DNA from: a virus
IMG/VR virus record: IMGVR_UViG_3300046665_000434
Coordinates: 62,001-126,000 of that record
DNA length: 64,000 bases
Direction: 5' to 3' (one strand)
Shown: one piece after another, positions 4,551 to 13,953 of the stretch
How the letters are laid out: each line of letters starts with the position of its first letter
Position numbering within the stretch: the stretch's first letter is position 1
Notes under the pieces: generated by a model
What the model was told of the DNA's origin: nothing
Database searches by the model: none
What the model saw: only the letters and a program-made list of their open reading frames with translations
Program-made: the position numbers and the translations under genes

Positions 4551-4627
4551 GCAGTATTAGCTCAGTTGGTTAGAGCGCAGCACTGTCACTGCTGAGGTCA
4601 CCGGTTCGAGTCCGGTATATTGCGCCA
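4551..4627 (+). tRNA. tRNA-Asp(GTC)
   Basis: Acceptor GCAGTAT pairs with ATATTGC. The D-arm is TAGCTCAGTTGGTTAGAGC. The anticodon stem CAGCA/TGCTG encloses loop CTGTCAC (anticodon GTC). The T-loop is TTCGAGT and CCA is encoded at 4625-4627. It is the first of an array of complete CCA-encoding tRNAs. Confidence 0.92.
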
Positions 4628-4634
4628 CTTTCAT

Positions 4635-4710
4635 TCCAAGGTAGCTCAGTCGGTAGAGCAGCACGCTGTTAACGTGTTGGTCCCTGGTTCGAATCCAGGT
4701 CTTGGAGCCA
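4635..4710 (+). tRNA. tRNA-Asn(GTT)
   Basis: Acceptor TCCAAGG/TCTTGGA. The anticodon stem GCACG/CGTGT encloses loop CTGTTAA (anticodon GTT). T-arm CCTGG-TTCGAAT-CCAGG, with CCA encoded. Confidence 0.92.
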
Positions 4711-4716
4711 CACAAA

Positions 4717-4792
4717 GGGTTAGTAGCTCAATTGGCAGAGCACCGGTCTCCAAAACCGGTTGTTGCAAGTTCGAGTCTTGCTTAGCCCGCCA
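4717..4792 (+). tRNA. tRNA-Trp(CCA)
   Basis: Acceptor GGGTTAG/TTAGCCC (two wobble pairs). The anticodon stem CCGGT/ACCGG encloses loop CTCCAAA (anticodon CCA). T-arm GCAAG-TTCGAGT-CTTGC, with CCA encoded. Confidence 0.9.
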
Positions 4793-4798
4793 TGTTTT

Positions 4799-4885
4799 GG
4801 ATGATGTAGAGACAGATGGCTACTGTCAGCGGACTGTAACCCCGCCGCTTCATGCTAGAGGTTCAATTCCTTCCTTCATCCACCA
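4799..4885 (+). tRNA. tRNA-Tyr(GTA), class II
   Basis: Acceptor GGATGAT/TTCATCC (6 of 7 pairs). Anticodon stem GCGGA/CCCGC encloses loop CTGTAAC (anticodon GTA). A long variable arm, as in bacterial tRNA-Tyr, precedes T-loop TTCAATT. Discriminator A and CCA are encoded. The D-arm is atypical (GACAG/CTGTC stem), so the fold is less certain than for its neighbours. Confidence 0.72.
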
Positions 4886-4892
4886 CTTTAAT

Positions 4893-5014
4893 AGTCTTGT
4901 AGCTCACTGGTAGAGCGCGTCCTTTCGGTTCGACTCCGAACATGCCTCGGCTTCGGCCAACGGCGTGATCTGGATACACGGACGAGGTAGCAGGTTCGAT
5001 TCCTGCCTAGACTT
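4893..5014 (+). tRNA. Interrupted tRNA-like gene A with a second T-arm inside the anticodon loop
   Basis: Outer tRNA: acceptor AGTCTTG/CTAGACT (6 of 7), D-arm GCTC...GAGC, anticodon stem CGTCC (4918-4922)/GGACG (4980-4984), T-arm GCAGG-TTCGATT-CCTGC. A 57-nt segment (4923-4979) fills the anticodon loop. It contains a complete T-arm (TTCGG-TTCGACT-CCGAA, 4924-4940), then CATGCC (4941-4946), which can pair with GGCGTG (4962-4967) like an acceptor stem read 3'-half-first, then a D-arm-like stretch (TCTGGATA). The 3' end is T-CCT rather than NCCA. If about 50 nt are removed, one possible loop is TTTACAC (anticodon TAC), but this solution is not unique. Confidence 0.6.
4923..4979 (+). other. Inner permuted tRNA-like segment of gene A
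   Basis: Order within the segment: T-arm, 3' acceptor-like strand, a 15-nt linker rich in CGG/GGCC, a 5' acceptor-like strand, then a D-loop-like sequence. It has no recognisable anticodon arm. It may be a degenerate version of the clearer permuted unit at 5698-5766. Confidence 0.45.
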
Positions 5015-5023
5015 CCTAGCAAT

Positions 5024-5189
5024 AACTCTGTAGCTCAGTTTGGATAGAGCGTCCTCATTTTTCCCCTAGGGGGATTGCAGGTTCAAGTCCTGTCCATTGC
5101 AAGTCCCCTAGGGGAGCCTTGGCTTTGGTGGCGGAATTGGTAGACGCGAACACGAGGAAGGTCACGGGTTCGATTCCCGTCATGAGTTA
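5024..5189 (+). tRNA. Interrupted tRNA-like gene B enclosing a Leu-type permuted unit
   Basis: Outer halves: AACTCTG-TA-GCTC...GAGC-G-TCCTC (5024-5056) and GAGGA-AGGTC-ACGGG-TTCGATT-CCCGT followed by ATGAGTT (5154-5188). Anticodon stem TCCTC/GAGGA is 5 of 5; the acceptor is solid only for AACTC/GAGTT. The 97-nt insert (5057-5153) starts with a 3' half and ends with a Leu-type 5' half (GCTTTGG-TG-GCG-GAATTGGTAGA-CGC). The 3' half holds a CCCCTAGGGG variable-arm hairpin and T-arm GCAGG-TTCAAGT-CCTGT. The inner acceptor GCTTTGG/CCATTGC pairs 5 of 7. The 3' end is A-CCT. Confidence 0.5.
5057..5153 (+). other. Inner permuted class II (Leu-like) tRNA segment of gene B
   Basis: 3' half first, then linker, then 5' half with a leucine-type D-arm. 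The palindrome CCCCTAGGGG occurs twice, once as the variable arm (near 5064-5073) and once in the linker (near 5105-5114). Anticodon-stem pairing is poor, so it may be decayed. Confidence 0.4.
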
Positions 5190-5198
5190 CCTGTTAAT

Positions 5199-5293
5199 GA
5201 TCCCCACTCCACTAAATCCCTCAAGGCGTTCTCTTAGGAGTTGCTGAGCGATGGTGGTGCGAGTAATAGCAAGTTAAAACCTTGTGGGGGTCA
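5199..5293 (+). ncRNA. tRNA-like structured element E1
   Basis: GATCCCC (5199-5205) pairs with GGGGGTC (5286-5292) as a 7-bp terminal stem followed by A-CCT. A T-arm-like hairpin GCAAG-TTAAAAC-CTTGT directly precedes the 3' strand. The interior folds into further hairpins but has no canonical D-arm or anticodon arm. It lies between two tRNA-type genes. Confidence 0.4.
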
Positions 5294-5303
5294 CCTTTTC
5301 AAT

Positions 5304-5380
5304 TGGGGTATAGCCAAGTTTGGTTACGGCAACGGGCTTTGATCCCGTCATCGCTGGTTCGAATCCAGCTGCCCCTTCCA
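5304..5380 (+). tRNA. tRNA-Gln(TTG)
   Basis: TGGGGTA-TA-GCC...GGC-A-ACGGG-CTTTGAT-CCCGT gives anticodon TTG. The D-arm GCCAAGTTTGGTTACGGC is Gln-like. T-arm GCTGG-TTCGAAT-CCAGC, acceptor strand TGCCCCT, and CCA encoded at 5378-5380. Confidence 0.88.
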
Positions 5381-5570: not shown

Positions 5571-5656
5571 AGTCCTCTAGCTCAGTTGGTTCAGAGCGTC
5601 CCCCTATCTTGCTAACGACATGGGGAAGGTCGTAAGTTCGAATCTTACGAGGACTT
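5571..5656 (+). tRNA. tRNA-like gene with an 18-nt anticodon loop
   Basis: Acceptor AGTCCTC/GAGGACT is 7 of 7. D-arm GCTC...GAGC; T-arm GTAAG-TTCGAAT-CTTAC; anticodon stem TCCCC (5599-5603)/GGGGA (5622-5626) is 5 of 5. The loop is CTATCTTGCTAACGACAT instead of 7 nt. It contains TTGCTAA, which would be an ideal loop for anticodon GCT, but the flanks pair only partly. The 3' end is T-CCT, without an encoded CCA. Confidence 0.65.
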
Positions 5657-5665
5657 CCTATTTAT

Positions 5666-5807
5666 AACTCTATAGCTCAATTGGTAGAGCGCCATCATCT
5701 TTAGGTTGCGGGTTCGATTCCCGCATGATCCGCATGGATCATTAGCTCAATTGGCAGAGCAGAAGATCACGCGATGGAGGTTGCAGGTTCGAGACCTGCT
5801 AGAGTTT
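5666..5807 (+). tRNA. Interrupted tRNA X, probably Val(CAC), carrying a permuted tRNA in its anticodon loop
   Basis: Outer gene: acceptor AACTCTA (5666-5672)/TAGAGTT (5800-5806) is 7 of 7. D-arm GCTC-AATTGGTA-GAGC; anticodon stem CCATC (5692-5696)/GATGG (5773-5777) is 5 of 5; variable AGGTT; T-arm GCAGG-TTCGAGA-CCTGC; 3' end T-CCT. The insert 5698-5766 is itself a permuted tRNA body. Removing it leaves loop ATCACGC: exactly 7 nt, U at position 33, anticodon CAC. The insertion point is ambiguous by a 2-nt TC direct repeat. Confidence 0.75.
5698..5766 (+). tRNA. Circularly permuted tRNA body Y (3' half before 5' half)
   Basis: In order: TCTTT, AGGTT, T-arm GCGGG-TTCGATT-CCCGC, acceptor 3' strand ATGATCC (5725-5731), 4-nt linker GCAT (5732-5735), acceptor 5' strand GGATCAT (5736-5742), TA, D-arm GCTC-AATTGGCA-GAGC, A, GAAGA. 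The acceptor pairs 7 of 7 and the anticodon stem GAAGA/TCTTT 5 of 5. Y has no anticodon loop of its own and its acceptor end is closed by a tetraloop, so it cannot be charged without processing. This is the clearest interleaved unit in the window. Confidence 0.72.
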
Positions 5808-5817
5808 CCTAATGCTA

Positions 5818-5950: not shown

Positions 5951-6493
5951 ATGGTGATGCTAATGTTCATGTTGAAAATTATGTCCGGTGAAGACCGGCC
6001 AGATTCTGATGTCTCGAAGTCGTTCAAGGGCGTTATCCTTGGCGATGGGATGTCGTTCGAGTTCTCCCGTAAGGTAACGACTGAAACGGCTCTGCTGACA
6101 TTGACGAGCCCAGATGGCTCTCACGTCACTATGGACCTCGCCGGTAACGCTTACATCGTAAGTAACACCGGTAAGACCGTGGCGTCATTCGCTTACAGTA
6201 ACACCAAGCTCGTTGACGCTGAGGTAGCTAACAGGCCTACGTTCAGCGAGCACGAAGATCGTCGACAGCGAGCAGCTGCGAAGCCGCTCAACTCTGTCTC
6301 AGTGAGTGCTGAAGCGGAAGCACTTACCAGTGCCCGCATCCTCTGGTTGAGATTACACGAACCTAAACGCCTTGACCGGTTGCGTGTATGTCGAAGAGCG
6401 GACGGCAGTCTCGTAGTAAATGATCAGGTCGACACGGTCCGACAATTGGATCAGTGGGGTGTCCCAAACACCTACGGCGAACTACTGAATTAA
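5951..6493 (+). CDS. Unknown protein, 180 aa, with a C-terminal domain shared with the gene at 10371
   Basis: Several Met codons lie near the start (positions 1, 3, 5, 7, 11); the true start may be a few codons downstream. N-terminal ~80 residues are beta-rich (FKGVILGDGMSFEFSR). Residues ~125-170 (RILWLRLHEPKRLDRLRVCR, then ADGSLVVND and TVRQLDQ) align with the C-terminal half of the protein at 10371-10685, so the two share a domain. Function unknown. Confidence 0.7.
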   Translation: MVMLMFMLKIMSGEDRPDSDVSKSFKGVILGDGMSFEFSRKVTTETALLTLTSPDGSHVTMDLAGNAYIVSNTGKTVASFAYSNTKLVDAEVANRPTFSEHEDRRQRAAAKPLNSVSVSAEAEALTSARILWLRLHEPKRLDRLRVCRRADGSLVVNDQVDTVRQLDQWGVPNTYGELLN

Positions 6494-7179: not shown

Positions 7180-7334
7180 TGGCGCCTCTTTTCCCCTCCG
7201 CAGGGGGAGACTTGAGACTATAGGGTATCTTGGTATCACGCCTGAGAATGTGTGCTGGCATATCCTGAAACCTCTGCTGGGAGGTGTCTTTCGTATGTAG
7301 GGGTACTCAGCTCCGGCATCCCGCGACTAATTTC

Positions 7335-8042
7335 GGATAGATAGGGAAGTGGCCAAACCCATCGGATTGACTTATTCTATGTATTTAAACATGGGATACG
7401 TCAATGAACTGCATCCACTGTCAGCGAGAATGTGTTAATTGGAATTCTCGGCGTGCACACGAGTGTCGTTGTCCGATGAATCCCAATCGGAAAGTCTTTA
7501 GCCCCAATCTAGGCAACCGACATTCTGAAGCTACTAAGGAGAGATGTAGGGCTGCCGCTCAACAGCAACATCGGCAAGGTTTAAGTGCCGGTTTCCCTAA
7601 CTGGGAAGGTAGAACTCATCGAGAAGAAAGTAAGTTAAGAATATCCCAAGCGCTGATGGGTAACAGGAATGGTAACCATCGAGGGGATCGACAGTCCTAC
7701 TATCGCGGGATCAGAATGGATTCTAGATGGGAGGTTCGTACTGCCGAGTGGTTAGATGACATGGGTTGTTATTGGAGATATTCTCCGAGGGGATTCCAGC
7801 TATCCGACGGGCGACACTACTATCCTGATTTCTTTGTCTATGATGATGAAGGTTGTTTAGATTACCTGATCGAAGTTAAAGGTTATTTTAGAGAAGGTAA
7901 TCGTTTGAAATTCGAAACGTTTAAACGAGAATATCCTGAAATAGAAATACGGTTGTGGGAGAAACCTCAACTTAAAGAATTGGGTATCCTTTAGAGTCCG
8001 GTCTCTATGAGTACGTCGGTTCGAATCCGACTCTGTCCTCCA
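7335..8042 (+). tRNA. Class II (Leu-like) tRNA gene split by an endonuclease ORF
   Basis: The 5' half (7335-7366 plus loop bases) is GGATAGA-TA-GGG...CCC-A-TCGGA. The 3' half from 7997 is TCCGG, a variable arm (CTC-TAT-GAG core), T-arm GTCGG-TTCGAAT-CCGAC, TCTGTCC, T, CCA (8040-8042). The acceptor pairs 7 of 7 and the anticodon stem 5 of 5 with one wobble each. Joining the loop bases on either side gives TTTAGAG (TAG) or TTGAGAG (GAG), both leucine anticodons. About 623 nt separate the halves, almost all filled by the ORF at 7404-7994. Confidence 0.68.
7404..7994 (+). CDS. NUMOD3 / PD-(D/E)XK homing-type endonuclease inside a tRNA gene
   Basis: 196 residues. The N-terminus has a C-x2-C...H-x-C-x-C cluster (CIHCQRE, HECRC), possibly zinc-binding. 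Residues ~40-90 carry two NUMOD3-like repeats (HSEATKERCR, REESKLRISQALMGN). The C-terminal half has the Vsr/TnsA-like nuclease signature: SRWEVRTAEWLDDMG, then YYPDFFVYDD and IEVKGYF, supplying the catalytic D...ExK. It lies between the two halves of a split tRNA, and its stop overlaps the anticodon-loop region of the 3' half. Homing endonucleases often sit at conserved tRNA sites. Confidence 0.8.
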   Translation: MNCIHCQRECVNWNSRRAHECRCPMNPNRKVFSPNLGNRHSEATKERCRAAAQQQHRQGLSAGFPNWEGRTHREESKLRISQALMGNRNGNHRGDRQSYYRGIRMDSRWEVRTAEWLDDMGCYWRYSPRGFQLSDGRHYYPDFFVYDDEGCLDYLIEVKGYFREGNRLKFETFKREYPEIEIRLWEKPQLKELGIL

Positions 8043-8489: not shown

Positions 8490-8499
8490 TACCATATTT

Positions 8500-8625
8500 C
8501 CATGATAGCTACTCGGAAAGGCGCCGTCAATGGGTTCGACTCCCGTTACCCTTAGGGGTATGTTGCCACCCGTACGGGTGGCTTGGCATAGACGGAGATT
8601 GTAGGTTCGACCCCTGCTCATGGAA
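8500..8625 (+). tRNA. Interrupted tRNA-like gene Z with an inner T-arm and closed acceptor hairpin
   Basis: Outer gene: acceptor TCCATGA (8500-8506)/TCATGGA (8618-8624) is 7 of 7. A short D-arm GCT...AGC; anticodon stem CCGTC (8524-8528)/GACGG (8591-8595) is 5 of 5; variable AGATT; T-arm GTAGG-TTCGACC-CCTGC; 3' end A-CCT. The 62-nt insert (8529-8590) holds a second T-arm ATGGG-TTCGACT-CCCGT, then TACCC-TTAG-GGGTA as a closed acceptor-like hairpin, then a 7-bp hairpin GCCACCC-GTAC-GGGTGGC. No anticodon loop can be rebuilt cleanly. Confidence 0.6.
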
Positions 8626-8669
8626 CCTAATCTTCAGCACAGTAGCCTATTCACGTTAGGAGTATTTTC

Positions 8670-8819: not shown

Positions 8820-8834
8820 GCACAACTCTTTAAT

Positions 8835-8940
8835 CCCTGGTCGACCATGCGGGGTTGGGCCTATACCCACGATACGATACGATCTAGCTACACGTCCGTC
8901 GTGGTTATTTGTCGGGAGTTCGATCCTCTCACTCGGGGCT
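8835..8940 (+). ncRNA. Possible further tRNA-like element
   Basis: A T-arm GGGAG-TTCGATC-CTCTC is followed by ACTCGGG, which pairs (6 of 7) with CCCTGGT at 8835. CCACGA (8867-8872) pairs perfectly with TCGTGG (8899-8904) in the anticodon-stem position around 26 nt. The D-region is not canonical and there is no CCA, so this may be a decayed tRNA. Confidence 0.3.
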
Positions 8941-8955
8941 GTATTTGGAGTCGCT

Positions 8956-9159
8956 ATGCTTGACAACGTTGAAGAAAATGTTGAGTACAGGTCTCCATCA
9001 GGGATCAGGTTCAAGGTAACCAGTATAGCGAGACATGCTCAGGATTGTTCCTGGCCCATGATCGTATACACTAATCTCGAACCTACCAAAGACGCACCTA
9101 CCGGTACAGTCTGGGTTATCGCTGAGTCGATATTTCTGAGAACGTTTTCGCGGATATAG
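8956..9159 (+). CDS. Unknown protein, 67 aa
   Basis: A GGAG SD precedes ATG. Beta-rich short protein (NVEYRSPSGIRFKVTSIARH...PMIVYTNLE). The C-terminus and stop codon overlap the first 10 bases of tRNA-Gly, an unusually tight packing. Confidence 0.65.
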   Translation: MLDNVEENVEYRSPSGIRFKVTSIARHAQDCSWPMIVYTNLEPTKDAPTGTVWVIAESIFLRTFSRI

Positions 9160-12413: not shown

Positions 12414-12845
12414 ATGTCCATTAGACCGCCAGTGTTGGCGATTGATCGCCAGAAACATTATCGTGATGCATTTACCGATAAAACGATGCGGCTCTATCTG
12501 CCCGTCAACGATCGGGACGAGGTGGTCGAGCACACTAACGGAGAGTGGTTGAAGTGCTGGACCTGGACCGATGTTGAAGGTGAGGTCCCGGTTGCGCTGT
12601 CATCGACAGCGGTGGGTATTTCCCACGCTCTGTTGTGGGCTCCTCGAGAAGATGCCCGTTTGACGCCAGATGGCGTGGTGATCGTCATGGCGCCATTACC
12701 TCGCAGTGTGGCATTCAATAGCCTCAGTAAGCTCGACCAATGGTCACGGCATCTGGAGCGGTCACCTGAATTTGATATCGAGTATCGAGTCGAGACAAAA
12801 CCGATATTCGTCGTTAATGACCCTGAAGAAAATCCACGTAATTAA
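12414..12845 (+). CDS. Unknown protein, 143 aa
   Basis: SD GGAAG upstream of ATG 12414. Beta-rich soluble protein. It ends 16 nt before the QueC-like gene and is probably co-transcribed with it. Confidence 0.75.
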   Translation: MSIRPPVLAIDRQKHYRDAFTDKTMRLYLPVNDRDEVVEHTNGEWLKCWTWTDVEGEVPVALSSTAVGISHALLWAPREDARLTPDGVVIVMAPLPRSVAFNSLSKLDQWSRHLERSPEFDIEYRVETKPIFVVNDPEENPRN

Positions 12846-12861
12846 TAAGGAGGGTATTCCC

Positions 12862-13953
12862 TTGGCTGAGAAGAAACCTTTGCTGCTGTTCTCCGGTGGT
12901 CTGGACTCCACGTACATCGCGTACAAACACTTCATTAAACAAGAACAGTTCGATATTGTCTATATCGATGGTCGCCAATCTCGTCGTAAAATCGAGGTCG
13001 AGGAGGCTGTTCGTGGTGAGATCCTCAATTGGTTACGTAAGCATACTGAGTTCTCCTGCTATCCTCGCCAACACTCCGCGGCGTCTACCGTGGACTGGTC
13101 TAACGCTACCAGCGCCGGGTTTCGTCAGGCTATGGCTTGGTTTGTATGCGCTCTGGAAGTGGTCGATCCACACGTACACTCTTGCGTGGAAATCGGCTAT
13201 GTTGCAGGTGATCAGATCTCATCCAATCTCGATACCCTGATCGCCGCTTGGAACGCGCTCTGGCCGGTAGCTAAAATCAGCGACAGCGTGGTCCCATTGA
13301 AATTTCCTCTTCGTTATACGACGAAGACTGAAATCATGAACCATATGCCGAAGGATCTGTACGAACTCACTTGGGTGTGTGAGCTTCCTAAGGGTGATGT
13401 TCGTACAGGGTATAAACCTTGTGGTGACTGTGTTCCATGCGATACCCGAGGAATGCTCGAGTACTCCAAAGCTCGTCGGAAAATGACTGCTGAAGAGCAA
13501 AGTCAGCTCGATGCATGGATCGGAAAAACTCTCGATCTGCGCCAACTGGCGAAACCTGAAATCGTGGCAGCGACTGCAAAGGACGCATATAGCGTTACGG
13601 ATAGTGTACAGGAGATCGTCGAGATCGCCAAGAAACTTTCCGAACCTGCCGATGAGAAGCCGGTCACTTACCAACTTGACTGGTCGAAGGTAAAGCAGGG
13701 AGGTACTGATGTCGCCAATGCGTTACAACAGCTTACCGATACAGCGCTGGCGATCAATAAACTCCCTCCTTCGGAAATGGCAAAACTGTTTGTGCTCGAT
13801 GATCACGGCGACCCTCTTCCAGTTGCAGACGGCGCGGTAAAATGGGTAGATCCGATGACATCTGTGCTTAAACGGGATCTTGAGGAACGCGGGTATATGG
13901 ATGCGATCCCATCGGGGCCGGTCAATGACTTACGGAAGGAGGCTGACCTGTAA
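12862..13953 (+). CDS. QueC-like PP-loop ATPase (7-cyano-7-deazaguanine synthase family)
   Basis: 363 residues from a TTG start at 12862 with a strong AAGGAGGG SD; longer readings would overlap the upstream gene. LLLFSGGLDST at residues ~7-17 is the PP-loop that adenylates substrate. A cysteine set near residue 180 (WVCELPK...YKPCGDCVPC) matches the zinc site of QueC. A C-terminal extension of ~120 residues follows. QueC makes preQ0 for queuosine, and in phages can feed deazaguanine DNA modification. No queD, queE or transglycosylase is visible here, so the pathway is unproven. Confidence 0.75.
   Translation: MAEKKPLLLFSGGLDSTYIAYKHFIKQEQFDIVYIDGRQSRRKIEVEEAVRGEILNWLRKHTEFSCYPRQHSAASTVDWSNATSAGFRQAMAWFVCALEVVDPHVHSCVEIGYVAGDQISSNLDTLIAAWNALWPVAKISDSVVPLKFPLRYTTKTEIMNHMPKDLYELTWVCELPKGDVRTGYKPCGDCVPCDTRGMLEYSKARRKMTAEEQSQLDAWIGKTLDLRQLAKPEIVAATAKDAYSVTDSVQEIVEIAKKLSEPADEKPVTYQLDWSKVKQGGTDVANALQQLTDTALAINKLPPSEMAKLFVLDDHGDPLPVADGAVKWVDPMTSVLKRDLEERGYMDAIPSGPVNDLRKEADL

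Follow-up and report, generated by a model that had tools for sequence, protein, structure and literature searches.

A tRNA gene interrupted in its anticodon loop by a second, circularly permuted tRNA raises the question of whether such a locus encodes an intron-containing tRNA, an RNA that imitates tRNA, or the remains of a recombination event. The locus considered here lies in a 64,000-nucleotide stretch of viral DNA (the window) that corresponds to positions 62001-126000 of a 154,261-base virus record. The record is a fragment of a phiKZ-like jumbo phage, with a phiKZ major capsid protein, a divergent DnaB, and internal head proteins.

In this element, which we call type D, the anticodon loop of an outer tRNA (X) is replaced by an inner, circularly permuted, acceptor-capped tRNA (Y), which runs in the order 3' anticodon stem, variable loop, T arm, GCAT-capped acceptor hairpin, D arm, and 5' anticodon stem (Table 1). 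Both heads have a cloverleaf with acceptor, D, and T arms and the elbow nucleotides. Read base by base, the acceptor and anticodon stems of X and Y pair exactly as claimed in the earlier note on this DNA, and removal of 5698-5766 leaves X with the 7-nt loop ATCACGC and U33, as it also claimed. The probability that 24 such acceptor and anticodon-stem pairs occur by chance is approximately 6e-11 if equal base frequencies are assumed. The RNAfold optimum is -52.1 kcal/mol (z = -3.3) and recovers every stem, the Y anticodon stem only in part. The arrangement is not a product of chance, and we regard this anatomy and its conservation as almost certain.

Table 1. Positions of the type D element, its paralogs and neighbors, and related RNAs in other phage sequences
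Feature	Sequence	Positions	Strand	Description or basis
Type D two-headed tRNA-like RNA, with 3' tail T-CC-TA	window	5666..5811	+	sequence, RNAfold, covariation, CM R1 150.5 bits
Outer tRNA X, 5' part	window	5666..5697	+	acceptor, D arm, 5' anticodon stem, 1 loop base; sequence, covariation
X acceptor	window	5666-5672/5800-5806	+	AACTCTA/TAGAGTT, 7/7 paired
X D stem	window	5675-5678/5687-5690	+
X anticodon stem	window	5692-5696/5773-5777	+	CCATC/GATGG, 5/5 paired
Inner permuted module Y	window	5698..5766	+	sequence, Rfam YrlA 41.8 bits (5700-5767), covariation
Y anticodon stem	window	5698-5702/5762-5766	+	TCTTT/GAAGA, 5/5 paired, one G-U
Y T stem-loop	window	5708-5724	+
Y acceptor	window	5725-5731/5736-5742	+	ATGATCC/GGATCAT, 7/7 paired, cap GCAT
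Y D stem	window	5745-5748/5757-5760	+
Outer tRNA X, 3' part	window	5767..5807	+	loop TCACGC, 3' anticodon stem, variable loop, T arm, acceptor, discriminator; sequence, covariation
X T stem-loop	window	5783-5799	+
Ordinary tRNAs Asp, Asn, Trp, Tyr-like	window	4551..4885	+	CCA encoded; Tyr-like 4799-4885, anticodon GTA from sequence
Type A paralog	window	4893-5018	+	Rfam tRNA 49.5 bits with 53-nt insert; conserved in L150, L194, L241, L440, L472
Type B paralog	window	5024-5193	+	outer AACTC/GAGTT and TCCTC/GAGGA; 67 bits to CM R1
Ordinary tRNA-Gln	window	5304..5380	+	CCA encoded
Type C	window	5571-5660	+	tRNA with enlarged conserved anticodon loop (~18 nt), consensus near UWGCUAAMGAC
Split tRNA-like gene	window	~7334-8039		GGATAGA/TCTGTCC
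ORF inside its insert	window	7404-7994		NUMOD3 motif
Type E paralog	window	8499-8629	+	outer TCCATGA/TCATGGA and CCGTC/GACGG; 49.6 bits to CM R1
Further tRNA-like element	window	8830-8945		CCCTGG..CTCGGGG, T arm
Further tRNA-like element	L194	1829-1960
Further tRNA-like element	L150	9813-9946
67-aa ORF	window	8956-9159		phrog_9138
QueC-like ORF	window	12706-13953
Type F	L187	8975-9100
Type F	L150	8133-8246
Type F	L194	523-633
B-type RNA	FLC9	129378..129227	-	R1 search, reading by eye
F-type RNA	FLC9 (L623)	129202..129084	-	R1 search, reading by eye
L187-type two-headed RNA	FLC9	129054..128918	-	R1 search, reading by eye

The strongest evidence for type D is comparative. Six distinct sequences (from the window and from contigs L150, L194, L241, L440, and L455) were compared over the 42 pairs of the structure. 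Instead of the random stem decay in related phages that the earlier note had named as the contrary outcome, 250 of the 251 cells are paired (99.6%); the five sequences from outside the window are partly interrelated, and the cells do not represent independent events. Shuffled versions of the alignment gave 85.5% paired cells, with none of 500 shuffles matching the real result, and a shift of the partner by 1-3 columns reduced the pairing to 30-41%. Both sides have changed in 18 of the 42 pairs, including pairs of both acceptor, both anticodon, and both T stems; i.e., 4, 3, and 4 pairs in the acceptor, anticodon, and T stems of the outer head and 4, 2, and 1 in those of the inner head. Between the L150 group, L455, and the window, the sequences of these same stems differ. 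A tertiary contact, the Levitt pair 15-48, also changes: the window copy has A-U at this pair in each of its heads, and the five homologs have G-C in each of theirs. U8 and A14 (which form the pair U8-A14), the D-loop GG, and the T-loop TTCRA are preserved in both heads. Anatomy and covariation together bear out the description of the insert as a circularly permuted tRNA within a second tRNA.

The homologs were found with spacing and architecture patterns over IMG/VR, followed by a script check of the four stems; the counts come from pattern scans of viral contigs and, except for type A, are lower bounds. Type D occurs with differing stems in at least five further phage contigs (L150, with L427 and L473; L194; L241; L440; and L455). 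The family is syntenic in L150, L194, L241, and L440 and present in L455, and several contigs share the order of types A, B, and C and the hairpin-insert RNAs (type F). The record that contains L455 is 254 kb long (G020; capsid protein 64% identical), and the one that contains L187, which has a related two-headed RNA, is 315 kb long (G023; capsid protein 28% identical); both records carry phiKZ-type capsid genes. The insert-bearing tRNA cluster is conserved in phiKZ-like jumbo phages. A search of viral contigs for relatives through the neighboring proteins (ORF 5951-6493 and the QueC-like ORF) found none, and two contigs with capsid genes 69-70% identical have no tRNAs. In blastn searches of 50,697 phage records, types D and B gave a single weak match, to an ordinary tRNA-Val, and type A gave none.

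Several other tRNA-like genes were encountered. In type F, a long hairpin and then a CACCA-like strand stand in place of the tRNA anticodon loop. A possible distant type in L240 and L627 and in L130 and L629 (270-kb and 35-kb phage contigs) is a tRNA-like gene (AGTTAGG..CCTGACT; inner CCATAT-GAAA-ATATGAGG) that contains an inner T arm. L272, L323, and L331 (Nocardiopsis and a similar contig) contain a tRNA-like GGCGCTC..GAGCGCC with a conserved, structured insert of ~90-100 nt that includes a T-arm-like hairpin. The spacing pattern, in which the T arm follows the D arm too soon, also picked many unrelated tRNA genes that are truncated or lack the anticodon arm, and these were rejected. A short gene of tRNA-like form that has the acceptor, D, and T arms but lacks an anticodon arm was seen in many phage and Lactobacillaceae contigs (L139, L173, L196, L301, L338, L364, and, in three copies, L197), e.g., ACGTGCA-TAGCTCAACGGCAGAGC-AAAGAAGATACGGGTTCGACTCCCGTTGCACGT.

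Within the window, type D is one of at least four paralogs (A, B, D, and E) in one tRNA cluster, in which ordinary tRNAs are interspersed among the insert-bearing genes; RNAs A, B, C, and E did not appear in the earlier note. The insert of type A is elbow-like and conserved, with the T arm TTCGGTTCGAYTCCGAA, the hairpin CATGCC..GGCGTG, and the strand TGGATACA. The inner module of type B is of a permuted class-II (Leu-like) form with a variable-arm hairpin; its inner acceptor reads TTGGCCG/CGGCCAA in the L150 group versus CTGCGCG/CGCGCAG in the Burkholderia phage FLC9. This stem is 7/7 paired in relatives and partly decayed in the window copy, which has mismatches in both acceptor stems; not every copy has therefore been kept. 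The inner part of type E is a permuted module whose acceptor is hairpin-capped; it is composed of a T arm, the hairpin TACCC-TTAG-GGGTA, and a D-like hairpin. In the window, CCA is encoded by 7/7 ordinary tRNAs versus 0/5 insert-bearing genes (Fisher p = 0.001), and all five of the latter end in CCT, the 3' end of type D being TCCTA. An ACCA end is encoded in one type F RNA of FLC9 and in the G023/L187 copies, so that the absence of CCA is not universal. Scans for promoters and terminators gave matches at chance level only.

The two-headed RNAs are accompanied by ordinary tRNAs in which the GUN-anticodon set (Asp, Asn, Tyr, and His) is prominent, with Ile and Gln in addition (window 4551-5380, L150, L241, L455, and FLC9). 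GUN-anticodon tRNAs are the queuosine tRNAs and also the targets of colicin E5; a QueC-like ORF is present in the window. Farther along the window, a tRNA-like gene is apparently split in its anticodon loop by ~660 nt, and the ORF inside this insert is likely a homing endonuclease. A further conserved tRNA-like element, also seen in L194 and L150, adjoins a conserved 67-aa ORF.

A covariance model built from type D (R1) was run on five cultured phage genomes. This search, of a kind suggested in the earlier note, found relatives in FLC9, two-headed RNAs among them; they are unannotated in the FLC9 record and were detected only by the covariance model, not by blastn. Because R1 contains tRNA arms, many of its other matches are ordinary tRNAs, and each claimed case was checked by eye; a long match in phage DT01 proved to be merely a tandem tRNA-Asn and tRNA-Asp. 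ARAGORN calls no two-headed gene, and standard gene finders miss these genes. Since FLC9 is in culture, its two-headed RNAs are directly testable.

The inner head resembles the tRNA-like module of the bacterial Y RNA YrlA. The known YrlA module (PDB 6CU1, via PMC11472068) aligns to tRNAs with a circular permutation. In published YrlA RNAs, a long stem rather than a tRNA forms the terminal part. Against the Rfam YrlA model (RF02553), the type D inner module scores 41.8 bits in the window, 40.9 bits in L614, and 37.7 bits in L612. Phage modules from TROVE/Ro60-bearing records score 34.9-39.5 bits against the same model, and the 3'-5' junctions of ordinary tandem tRNAs reach ~19-26 bits by chance; the inner head is therefore a permuted tRNA of the YrlA type. 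The window score is below the Rfam gathering score of 69, as are those of the Ro60-adjacent phage copies. The statement that no phage example of a permuted tRNA was known needs correction, since the YrlA module is known and has been reported from phages, and copies were found here beside TROVE genes. On the other hand, the terminal Y-RNA stem, to which Ro60 binds, is absent, its place being taken by tRNA X in 6/6 type D homologs, and no TROVE/Ro60 gene was found in any record with two-headed RNAs, among them the window record (G000), G020 (254 kb), G023 (315 kb), and the complete FLC9 genome (322 kb); several other records are fragments. Type D, with no Ro60 gene found and without the stem, is thus not classified as YrlA, though it works like a YrlA module.

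Five phage Y RNAs (L474, L475, L476, L477, and L478, on the contigs of L041, L116, L063, L100, and L066) have perfect permuted tRNA modules and a TROVE/Ro60 gene in the record. By eye, some of them have a complete anticodon-like arm on the 5' side of the T arm (e.g., with loops CTTTTAA and CTGAAAA) and complementary flanks. At 35-40 bits, these RNAs are missed by the Rfam YrlA threshold.

The locus encodes one structured noncoding RNA of ~142 nt in which both ends belong to the outer tRNA head, and in which a second elbow, the YrlA-like permuted module with its acceptor sealed by a hairpin, takes the place of the X anticodon loop. The heads meet at their anticodon stems, with an internal loop between these, an arrangement that gives two tRNA elbows, one acceptor end, and no anticodon loop; the predicted three-dimensional shape has both elbows exposed. 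Transcription would occur with the phage tRNA cluster, and the outer ends would probably be trimmed like those of tRNA, by an RNase P-type activity. In place of decoding, the RNA probably acts by mimicking tRNAs. As an uncleavable mimic, it could compete against genuine tRNAs for binding by host proteins that recognize the tRNA body or elbow, especially tRNA-targeting defense nucleases. YrlA is not cut by a RecA-dependent anticodon nuclease of Salmonella, and its tRNA-like domain has been proposed as a competitive inhibitor of that nuclease (Hughes et al., PMC7790460); phage tRNAs are known to counter tRNA-cleaving defenses (PMC12409363). No anti-defense context was found next to the type D RNA. 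Taken as a whole, the locus may well encode a nondecoding tRNA mimic, including a decoy for host factors that bind or cleave tRNA, and this is the explanation that we tentatively favor. The mimicry proposed in the earlier note thus survives, and the decoy role is one that we infer.

The main rival to the decoy is a scaffold like that of Y RNAs, in which a phage or host RNP would be tethered or gated by the elbow modules, in the way that YrlA acts for Ro60 and PNPase, while the outer tRNA supplied stable tRNA-type ends. The YrlA scores of the inner head, which lie in the range of the Ro60-adjacent phage modules, favor this role, but neither the long Ro60-binding stem nor, in the four genomes and records named above, a TROVE/Ro60 gene accompanies the RNA, and we consider it rather unlikely. 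A role in translation with an aminoacylated outer end, either tmRNA-like or ribosome-binding, would make use of the complete outer acceptor, D, and T arms; it is improbable, as the window lineage has no encoded CCA, anticodon, or tag reading frame and the acceptor ends are mostly A1-U72.

The loop between the anticodon stems bears on the remaining readings. It measures 7 nt in the window only and 11-13 nt in the other five homologs, and the six share no triplet; the 7-nt loop with the anticodon CAC is unique to the window copy. In its present form, the product is therefore unable to decode. Short caps that vary in length and sequence, such as GCAT, GCAA, GTAT, and TTCG, close the inner acceptor, and this speaks against the release of Y. 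The acceptor would have to be opened if RNase P and an endonuclease cut the RNA into a domain-swapped pair (5'X-3'Y and 5'Y-3'X) or freed a mature permuted Y. Each half is of tRNA length, and RNase P recognizes similar tRNA elbows; however, the linkers are variable, with TTCG and GNRA-type caps among them, and none encodes a CCA end for Y, which makes such processing very improbable. Marginally less credible still is a tRNA with an intron, from which Y would be excised and X ligated to a Val-like (CAC) tRNA. Splicing requires a consistent product, and the perfect 7-nt loop with U33 that excision leaves in the window copy has no counterpart in the other five, where the leftover loop is longer and the anticodon is not conserved; moreover, the inner stem is itself conserved and its acceptor capped. 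An RtcB ligase is encoded by FLC9, but by none of the others among six records searched, the window record and the 254-kb and 315-kb relatives included (several of the six are fragments). A search for the T4 Rnl1 family of RNA ligases gave no match, in these two relatives as elsewhere, and likewise matched in no control genome. The intron proposed in the earlier note is accordingly disfavored. The other early suggestion, a recombination relic or decaying tRNA pseudogene, finds a parallel in the mismatched acceptor stems of the window type B but is refuted by stems that are conserved and covary across six lineages, with strong compensatory and tertiary-pair changes (barring misassembly in all six contigs) and synteny in several phages, and has next to no likelihood.

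Two tRNA folds linked through their anticodon stems thus occur in nature as a conserved RNA. No description of this two-headed architecture was found in the open-access literature searched, and no Rfam family matches it at the gathering threshold. Permuted tRNA-like modules in bacteria and phages (Y RNAs) and permuted or intron-containing tRNA genes in algae and archaea are already known, while the insertion of a permuted module into another tRNA, maintained across a family, appears to be undescribed. More speculatively than the decoy itself, these RNAs might form a new class of phage noncoding RNA in which the anticodon domain is swapped for a second elbow or another capped domain, a multigene set in phiKZ-like jumbo phages whose uncleavable mimics block host tRNA-targeting immunity; the argument for a new class depends on family size and on a function still to be demonstrated. 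If they are decoys, they would be an RNA-based phage response to tRNA-cleaving immunity and a means of finding which host proteins read the tRNA elbow.

Among known systems, YrlA is the closest to the inner head, since both are circularly permuted tRNAs with a T arm, a capped acceptor, a D arm, and an anticodon stem; type D differs in having a second complete tRNA in place of the Y-RNA stem and no Ro60 gene found with it. Similar to the permuted and intron-containing tRNA genes of algae and archaea (PMC3978253, PMC3218864), type D has a 3' half before a 5' half (Y) and an interruption in the anticodon loop (X), but unlike them it has no consistent splice product, a capped inner acceptor, and no conserved anticodon. 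The stable RNAs C and D of phage T4 ("species 1 and 2," 139 and 119 nt) are similar in size and also lie inside a phage tRNA cluster, and rnaC has a tRNA-like T arm and acceptor at its end; they are without a second tRNA head, and the comparison extends only to how they may work, as homology was rejected (rnaC scores 12.2 bits to R1, and rnaD has no match). Finally, the phage tRNAs that counter tRNA-cleaving defenses such as PARIS/AriB resemble type D in that the phage supplies a tRNA shape from the same gene cluster; those tRNAs (PMC12409363) decode, whereas type D offers the tRNA shape without an anticodon loop.
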